The notes beneath the pieces are model-generated. The model did not search any database. It had not been told where the DNA came from and saw only the letters and a list, made by a program, of their open reading frames with translations. The position numbers and the translations under genes are program-made. Below, one piece after another: positions 12,568 to 14,415 of a stretch of 64,000 nucleotides of DNA; position 1 is the stretch's first letter, and every line of letters starts with the position of its first letter. This stretch comes from Candidatus Binatia bacterium. Its GTDB lineage: Bacteria > Desulfobacterota > Binatia > HRBIN30. The stretch is taken from assembly GCA_937925685.1 (NCBI GenBank), contig CALAMI010000011.1:62001-126000 (forward strand), read 5' to 3'.

Positions 12568-12596
12568 TTGACAAGGTGGTCACAGTCGATTAGCTG
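12568..12596 (+). promoter_or_regulatory. Candidate sigma-70 promoter of the leucine operon
   Basis: A perfect -35 hexamer TTGACA at 12568 is followed after 17 bases by a weak -10, TAGCTG, at 12591. Transcription would begin about 12603, only some six bases before the leader-peptide ATG, so the leader would be read from an almost leaderless transcript. The position is right for attenuation control; the start point is a prediction. Confidence 0.5.
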
Positions 12597-12608: not shown

Positions 12609-12704
12609 ATGAGGATCAAGAACGTTTTCCGCAGCTTGCCGGTTTTGGGTCTTCTTGCGGAGCTGTTGCTTCGTTGCCCGCCCGGTGCGTCTGCGGGGAC
12701 GTGA
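12609..12704 (+). CDS. leuL: Leucine-rich leader peptide (leu operon attenuator)
   Basis: A 31-codon frame whose middle, SLPVLGLLAELLLRC, has seven leucines in twelve residues, including the runs L15-L16 and L19-L20-L21, using TTG, CTT and CTG codons. It lies 158 bases upstream of leuA and is followed by a terminator hairpin and U-tract. This is the classic arrangement of ribosome-mediated attenuation: slow translation at Leu codons when leucyl-tRNA is scarce prevents termination. There is no clear ribosome site before the ATG. Seen directly: peptide, hairpin and alternative pairing. Function inferred from known leu leaders. Confidence 0.8.
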   Translation: MRIKNVFRSLPVLGLLAELLLRCPPGASAGT

Positions 12705-12739
12705 CTGGTACCACGAAACCCGAAGACGCCACGGGCGGG
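12677..12739 (+). promoter_or_regulatory. Antiterminator hairpin of the leu attenuator
   Basis: Bases 12677-12692 can pair with 12724-12739 as an 8-bp and a 6-bp helix separated by a 2x2 mismatch, 14 base pairs in all. The second arm contains the whole 5' arm of the terminator (12727-12736), so the two structures exclude each other. The first arm lies inside the leader coding sequence just after the last Leu codons and before the stop; a ribosome that reaches the stop would cover part of it and favour termination. Confidence 0.75.
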
Positions 12740-12762
12740 AGACGCTGCCCGTGGCGTTTTTC
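12727..12762 (+). terminator. Intrinsic terminator of the leu attenuator
   Basis: A perfect 10-bp GC-rich stem, CGCCACGGGC at 12727-12736 with GCCCGTGGCG at 12747-12756, with a 10-base loop, followed by TTTTT. It lies about 100 bases before leuA and 23 bases after the leader stop codon. Confidence 0.88.
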
Positions 12763-12861
12763 TTTGTGCCGCGGGCAGCTCCCACCGGCGGCGCTTTCGG
12801 TGCGTGGGCTTTTCCAGTTTTTTTGAGGAACGCAGCAGGAACAAGAAGAAGGGAGTGAAGG

Positions 12862-14415
12862 ATGATGAAACACGATCCAGACGTCGTCAGGATTTTCGAT
12901 ACGACCCTGCGCGATGGCGAACAATCGCCCGGAGCCAGCATGAACGTAGAAGAAAAAGTGCTGGTGGCGCGGCAGCTGGAGCGGCTAGGAGTGGATGTCA
13001 TCGAGGCGGGGTTCGCCGCATCGTCGCCGGGTGACTTCGAAGCCGTTGCCCGAGTGGCAGCTACGGTCACTCGTCCAGTCGTCCTCAGCTTGGCACGCAC
13101 CCGGGAAAACGACATCGTGCAAGCCATCCGAGCGGTGGAAAAAGCGCAGCACCCAGGGATTCATGTGTTCATCGCCACCTCGGATTTGCACCTGGAGCGC
13201 AAGCTCATGATGAGCCGGCAAGAAGTGATTGACGCTGCTTGCTGGGCGGTGGAGTATTGCCGCAAGTACTTAGACTACGTGGAGTTTTCCGCGGAAGATG
13301 CCTCCCGTTCCGATCCTGACTACCTCGTCCAAGTTTTCGGTGAAGTCATCCGCTGCGGTGCGAGCGTGGTGAACGTGCCGGACACGACCGGCTACGCCGT
13401 GCCGGAGGAATTTGGGGCGCTGTTCCGGTACCTGATCGCAAACACTCCGGAAAGCGACCGCGTTGTGTGGAGTGCGCATTGCCACAACGACCTTGGCATG
13501 GCAGTGGCGAACTCGCTTGCCGCGGTACGAAACGGGGCACGGCAGGTAGAGTGTACCGTAAACGGCATTGGCGAGCGCGCTGGCAACACATCGCTCGAAG
13601 AAGTGGTCATGGCAATCCACACGCGGAGCGACTTTTTCAAACTGCGCACGAACATTGTCACCGAGCAAATCTACCCGGCAAGCCGTTTACTGTCGCAAGT
13701 TACGGGGCTGGTCGTTCCGGTCAACAAACCCATCGTTGGGGACAATGCGTTCGCTCACGAGGCAGGGATTCATCAGGATGGTGTGCTGAAAGACAAGCTC
13801 ACCTACGAGATCATGCGGCCAGAGTCGATTGGGCTGCCGAGTAACAAACTCGTGTTGGGCAAACATTCCGGGCGCCACGCGTTTGCCGAGAGACTCAAGG
13901 AGCTCGGCGTCGACTTGTACAACGTCGACATGAACAAGGCGTTTGCCAAGTTCAAGGAGTTGGCGGATCGTAAAAAGTTCGTGTACGATGAAGACCTTTT
14001 GGCGATCGTTACAGAAGAAGCAGTTCGCGGCCCGGACTATTTGGAGTTACTAGAACTGGAGGTGCGGGCCGCCACGCACGGCGTTCCTACGGCTCAAGTG
14101 CGCATGCGGGTCGATGGCACGGTAAAACAAGCTGCAGCCGAGGGCGACGGTATGGTGGATGCGTGCTTCAAGGCGATTGCGGAGCTGGTGGGCGTGCAAC
14201 CTCGCTTGGAACGTTATGCGGTAAAGGCCATTACCGGCGGCACCGACGCAATGGGAGAGGTTTCCTGCTTGATTAGTCTCGATGGTGTGACTGCAACCGG
14301 CCAGGGAGCCCATACCGACATTGTACACGCCAGTGCCCTTGCCTATGTGAACGCGCTTAACAAACTACAGAACCGTCGCACACGCTATCGCCAGATTTCT
14401 GGCGAGGAGCCGTGA
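12862..14415 (+). CDS. leuA: 2-isopropylmalate synthase
   Basis: Condenses acetyl-CoA with 2-oxoisovalerate, the first committed step of leucine synthesis. 517 residues, as for the long proteobacterial type. The N-terminal TIM barrel has IFDTTLRDGEQSPG with the metal and substrate Asp/Arg, EAGFAASSPGDF, the metal-binding HCHNDLGMAVANSL, and NGIGERAGN. The C-terminal LeuA dimerisation domain follows from about residue 370 and would carry leucine feedback inhibition, with GTDAMGEVSC as a conserved block. Two adjacent ATGs are preceded by AAGGGAG. Expression appears controlled by the upstream leader and attenuator. First gene of leuA-leuB-usg-truA. Confidence 0.97.
   Translation: MMKHDPDVVRIFDTTLRDGEQSPGASMNVEEKVLVARQLERLGVDVIEAGFAASSPGDFEAVARVAATVTRPVVLSLARTRENDIVQAIRAVEKAQHPGIHVFIATSDLHLERKLMMSRQEVIDAACWAVEYCRKYLDYVEFSAEDASRSDPDYLVQVFGEVIRCGASVVNVPDTTGYAVPEEFGALFRYLIANTPESDRVVWSAHCHNDLGMAVANSLAAVRNGARQVECTVNGIGERAGNTSLEEVVMAIHTRSDFFKLRTNIVTEQIYPASRLLSQVTGLVVPVNKPIVGDNAFAHEAGIHQDGVLKDKLTYEIMRPESIGLPSNKLVLGKHSGRHAFAERLKELGVDLYNVDMNKAFAKFKELADRKKFVYDEDLLAIVTEEAVRGPDYLELLELEVRAATHGVPTAQVRMRVDGTVKQAAAEGDGMVDACFKAIAELVGVQPRLERYAVKAITGGTDAMGEVSCLISLDGVTATGQGAHTDIVHASALAYVNALNKLQNRRTRYRQISGEEP

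Follow-up and report, generated by a model that had tools for sequence, protein, structure and literature searches.

In the window, the 64,000-nucleotide stretch of DNA analyzed here, the reading frame that we take to be leuA, judging from its sequence and from the adjoining leuB-like and asd-like reading frames, is preceded by a short Leu-rich leader ORF and by a series of RNA segments, numbered 1 to 6, that can pair with one another in alternative ways (Table 1). The source genome, of 3.7 Mb, belongs to the Binatota; the closest named relative is HRbin30, a member of the same genus with a 97% identical LeuA. The records of the relatives are labelled Candidatus Binatota or Binatia, and many of the older ones Deltaproteobacteria. 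A homology search detected LeuA relatives in 97 of 98 genomes.

Table 1. Promoter, leader, alternative RNA pairings and regulated gene at the leuA locus (positions in the window)
Feature	Positions	Strand	Basis
Promoter: TTGACA (12568-12573), 17-nt spacer, TAGCTG (12591-12596)	12568-12596	+	-35 box and spacing recur in most relatives
Leader ORF of 31 codons, seven of them Leu (15-16 and 19-21 as control codons)	12609-12704	+	Conserved Leu run at a conserved distance from the stop
1:2 hairpin (about 12621-12635 with 12687-12702), predicted for untranslated RNA	12620-12702	+	Predicted by minimum-energy folding of the full leader
Antiterminator 2:3 (core 12677-12692 with 12724-12739)	12673-12743	+	Folds; pair counts over 24 species
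Terminator 3:4 (12722-12738 with 12745-12761), T-tract 12757-12765	12722-12765	+	Stem, U-tract, covariation, folds
Post-terminator helix 4:5 (12744-12757 with 12766-12779), 14 bp	12744-12779	+	Pairing, folds, pair counts
Distal hairpin 5:6, remnant of 7 bp, no clear U-tract	12766-12794	+	Strong terminator-like hairpin in many relatives
leuA, 2-isopropylmalate synthase, 517 aa, regulated gene	12862-14415	+	ORF and homologs

A sequence-only reading of this DNA had described a 31-codon leader with seven Leu codons ahead of leuA, and re-reading the sequence gave the same frame, which translates as MRIKNVFRSLPVLGLLAELLLRCPPGASAGT and ends at the stop codon 12702-12704, with Leu at codons 10, 13, 15, 16, 19, 20 and 21. 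By the geometry of the promoter, which a consensus scan missed because its -10 box is weak, the RNA would start at about 12603, and only a few bases would separate the RNA 5' end from the leader ORF. Inspection of the sequence before the leader ATG revealed no Shine-Dalgarno motif. The lack of a ribosome site and a predicted start about six bases before the ATG, flagged as unusual in the sequence-only reading, recur in most leaders across the phylum. Of 61 leaders, 50 have a TTGAC that starts 36-41 nt upstream of the ATG, and in 52 the best promoter has a -10 box starting 11-18 nt upstream of it, so that ordinary promoter geometry would place the RNA start 0-6 nt ahead of the ATG. Pairing with the anti-Shine-Dalgarno sequence before the leaders is no better than in shuffled sequences (median -2.6 versus -3.0 kcal/mol); before leuA itself, it is strong (-8.7 kcal/mol). 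Promoter spacing and the absent anti-Shine-Dalgarno pairing thus predict a nearly leaderless leader ORF in most Binatota, an exception being a congener (L004) with a longer 5' UTR. No long ORF with the same promoter-to-ATG arrangement was found in the window and the retrieved loci, a small sample around one operon.

A script identified Leu-run leaders before leuA in 61 of 93 distinct Binatota loci, compared with 0.4-3 expected by shuffling, depending on the threshold, and L010 has an evident shorter Leu leader that was recognized by eye. Runs of at least five Leu in seven codons are present in 52 of the 93 regions, versus 0.4 in shuffled sequences and 1 on the opposite strand; in the same test, every other amino acid gave 0-8 regions, so that Leu alone has such runs. 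Some of the 93 regions come from close relatives, and these near-copies inflate the counts, which are not independent. The run is specific for Leu, as in a classical attenuator, and its translation is predicted; the Leu codons of the leader are not rare in neighboring genes, which counts against an attenuator. The run lies 10-12 codons ahead of the stop, and nearly every leader has 33, 36 or 39 nt between the final Leu codon of the run and the end of the stop, although the intervening peptides differ between species. Most regions without a leader contain another open frame on the same strand that ends shortly before leuA, which indicates that the leader goes with leuA heading the transcript. 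When the LeuA tree is rooted at its midpoint, leaders are found on either side of the root. Both congeners and most Binatota loci in which leuA heads the transcript have a Leu-run leader followed by hairpins, and the absence of Leu codons or of a hairpin in close relatives, named beforehand as an observation that would speak against an attenuator, was not encountered. The same comparison of leuA upstream regions, proposed as a check for a conserved Leu leader and covariation, yielded both. Leu-rich ends in L025, L056, L061, L066, L092-L094 and L098 were rejected as leaders; they represent the hydrophobic end of an upstream gene that, judged from the translation only, is presumably pssA-like.

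The structural part of the earlier description largely holds. The alternative helix of 14 pairs (8 and 6 bp, separated by a 2x2 internal loop) was recovered exactly as claimed. The terminator and its U-tract were borne out as well, but the stem, given as a perfect 10 bp, was understated and comprises 17 pairs including G-U and A-U, covarying and located ahead of leuA as expected of an intrinsic terminator. The folds, the pair counts and the Leu-to-stop spacing all agree with a first antiterminator arm placed between the control codons and a point just past the stop. Folding, suggested as a check for two exclusive structures, gives either the antiterminator or the 1:2 hairpin plus terminator, depending on the portion of the RNA that is folded. 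Thus, for the window RNA 3' of the last Leu codon, the minimum-energy structure is the antiterminator (-45.5 kcal/mol, z -6.4), and the whole leader folds as the 1:2 hairpin and the terminator (z -3.6). In all 25 species, the terminator is the predicted fold of RNA that starts past the stop, and the fold preferences match both the on and the off states in 23 of the 25. The pair counts likewise indicate mutually exclusive pairings. For the terminator together with the distal hairpin, 92% of the cells are paired, with 45 both-sided changes versus 17.7 in shuffled alignments (24 sequences); for 2:3 and 4:5, 82% are paired, with 44 both-sided changes versus 23 (24 species), the inner part of 2:3 pairing unevenly in this alignment. 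In Binataceae, 94% of the terminator cells are paired. Across the two alignments, support for the terminator comes from both lineages, and clear support for the antiterminator from one; the covariation of 2:3 is weak in Binataceae because 2:3 hardly varies there.

Just past the U-tract, the segment 12766-12779 pairs with the 3' arm of the terminator, a helix (4:5) that is absent from the sequence-only reading. In sister families, segment 5 is in addition part of a second hairpin, which often ends in a strong U-tract, and eight pairs of this hairpin show both-sided changes among 24 sequences. Eight consecutive core pairs of 4:5 hold in all 24 sequences, the changed bases of segment 5 still pairing by wobble. 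When folded up to the end of segment 5, the RNA of 23 out of 25 species forms 2:3 together with 4:5; with segment 6 included, equilibrium folding prefers 5:6 over 4:5 in 20 of 22 species. Accordingly, the chain, if it works, would act by the order of synthesis rather than by final stability. In L010 and L096, the U-tract is on the distal hairpin only; Binataceae have one terminator; and the distal hairpin was lost in the genus of the window and in L019 and L023, with the proviso that the assignment of hairpins across loci misassigns a few (L012, L019 and L103). The two-hairpin form is found on both sides of the root of the LeuA tree and hence may be ancestral, the root being only a midpoint and the deep forks uncertain. 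The conserved pairings would allow a six-segment chain in many relatives, in which 2:3 and 4:5 would form in the on state and 3:4 and 5:6 in the off state.

A covariance model of the leader finds one strong site in most genomes of the order and in several other families; the sites are located just upstream of leuA or, in G008, adjoin a leuA paralog. In this genome, the leader (L114; G008:C8:150901-151922) precedes the paralog, a fragment-length match with 58% identity, which lies just upstream of leuA. Among the matches away from leuA, part of which were inspected, L113 lies between unrelated genes and L112 (E 3e-7; G018:C198, minus strand, about 1620-1860) looks real. The latter combines a TTGACT promoter, a nearly leaderless short ORF in which no control amino acid stands out, and two chained hairpins, all ahead of an ORF for a putative GNAT-type acetyltransferase. 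In 16 relatives, trpE and leuC, like most ilvB loci, have no convincing leader. Short ORFs with Val/Leu runs, MSPVERAADLLLSVVVVVVRVLEAVAP in L118 (G008) and MYSADRTHNRNPLGVLALVVVVVGVGEAVAP in L121 (G010), each closed by a stop codon, are found about 130-230 nt upstream of ilvB and possibly belong to a valine/leucine attenuator of the acetolactate synthase gene in that family. One contig whose record names Candidatus Uhrbacteria (L104, MGEK01000024.1) carries a leuA 65% identical to that of the window, a Leu leader and a terminator-like hairpin, and would be either misbinned or the result of a transfer. Another one, titled as a Klebsiella pneumoniae MAG (L036, CAMBFS010000144.1), carries a Binatota leuA, and its title looks wrong.

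These features very probably make up a classical leucine-responsive transcription attenuator of leuA that is read by the position of the ribosome; from them we infer the start site, the ribosome footprints, the termination and the leucine response. With ample leucine, the leader switch probably halts transcription: the ribosome at the stop codon would cover the inner part of segment 2, allowing 3:4 to form, and transcription would terminate at about 12763. When charged tRNA-Leu is scarce, the ribosome would stall at the Leu codons 15-21, leaving segment 2 free as segment 3 emerges, so that 2:3 could form; segment 5 would then capture segment 4, and RNA polymerase would read on into leuA. Without translation, 1:2 and 3:4 are expected to form and transcription to stop.

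In the leu operon attenuator of enterobacteria (leuL), a leader peptide with a Leu run and competing antiterminator and terminator hairpins precede leuA. The Binatota systems share the Leu-run leader, the competing hairpins and the target gene but differ in the predicted leaderless start of the leader and in the extra helix past the terminator. Rfam, with the enteric leucine leader among its families, was searched at the gathering threshold and permissively (E up to 10), which returned chance matches only and none that was relevant. A Leu leader ORF at leuA outside the enterics has a precedent in Campylobacter, where LeuL precedes leuABCD and attenuation has been proposed (PMC3847290, PMC11955535). 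The search for that leader demanded rare Leu codons at the C-terminal end and a site for ribosome binding (PMC3847290, PMC11955535), whereas most Binatota leaders lack a ribosome site, and the Leu run is well before the stop, with codons that are not rare. Leaderless Leu-run leader ORFs, one of them before leuA, are also known in Streptomyces, where LeuL1 lacks a typical terminator and LeuL2, with a terminator, precedes leuS (PMC8079986). In the leaderless leader ORF of Corynebacterium glutamicum ilvBNC, a terminator and an antiterminator likewise serve the branched-chain amino acid pathway (PMC11857589); the gene and the codons are different, and ilvBNC has an anti-antiterminator where Binatota would have a downstream chain. 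A counterpart of the proposed six-segment chain with alternate on and off pairings is the his operon attenuator, with stems AB, CD and EF versus BC and DE and one terminator, EF, at the end (PMC10989985); in contrast to this single terminator, each of the two off-state hairpins can be followed by a U-tract in many Binatota species. Two tandem terminators, the upstream one with an antiterminator, are also found in the rimP leader, which is not described as an amino acid leader-peptide switch (PMC2965389). No report of leader attenuators in Binatota came up in a literature search that covered mainly titles and abstracts and few subscription papers. The principle thus appears ordinary; what seems notable is its reach through the phylum, the predicted leaderless start and the apparently chained second terminator.

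A Leu-rich frame is easily produced by chance, and the promoter matches the consensus poorly, so that a fortuitous frame of this kind before the ordinary terminator of an upstream transcript might be envisaged; such a coincidence is extremely improbable, being already contradicted by the phylum-wide conservation and by the constant distances from Leu run to stop and from promoter to ATG, which go far beyond what shuffled sequences yield. The leaderless Leu-run ORF could also work otherwise, with RNA structure controlling leuA translation or binding a protein and the hairpins being secondary, as proposed for the actinobacterial LEU element, a pseudoknot that touches the leuA Shine-Dalgarno sequence and may not act by classical attenuation (PMC1262725). 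Although leuA of Streptomyces offers a model for this with its leaderless Leu leader and no typical terminator (PMC8079986), we consider such a mode of action very unlikely: in the LEU element, which has no terminator, Leu codons are paired with the Shine-Dalgarno sequence of leuA, whereas here the Leu codons lie outside 2:3, conserved U-tract terminators compete with the antiterminator, and the hairpins are well upstream of the Shine-Dalgarno sequence.

The choice is much less clear with regard to the second hairpin. The chance is nearly even that no chained switch exists, the second hairpin being an independent back-up terminator that arose by duplication of the first, and 4:5 a by-product of their likeness. 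Indeed, segments 3 and 5 are alike, with GCCACGGGC in both, the equilibrium preference for 5:6 over 4:5 agrees with an independent hairpin, and the stem cores changed by transitions, a type of change that stems favor anyway. Against this, the eight consecutive 4:5 pairs were kept throughout although segment 5 changed together with segment 6, 4:5 forms in nearly all species when the RNA extends to segment 5, a terminator that always acts ahead of leuA would come at a cost, and in the two loci with a U-tract on the distal hairpin only, the signal must pass through the chain. We tentatively propose, as a plausible scenario that we hold to be somewhat less than probable, that Binatota have a phylum-wide leaderless leucine attenuator whose early form was a kinetic six-segment chain: stalling at Leu codons would set 2:3 and free segment 4 to trap segment 5 before segment 6 is made, disarming two successive terminators in one event, and the lineages would since have kept the first, the last or both.

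Altogether, the attenuator reading would extend peptide-leader attenuation to an uncultured phylum and suggests that the device is old and nearly universal in Binatota wherever leuA heads the transcript. Given the predicted leaderless start, one may ask how translation can be initiated and coupled to transcription fast enough, and the leaders with one, two or shifted terminators may provide a natural series for probing RNA strand-exchange signalling along several hairpins during transcription.
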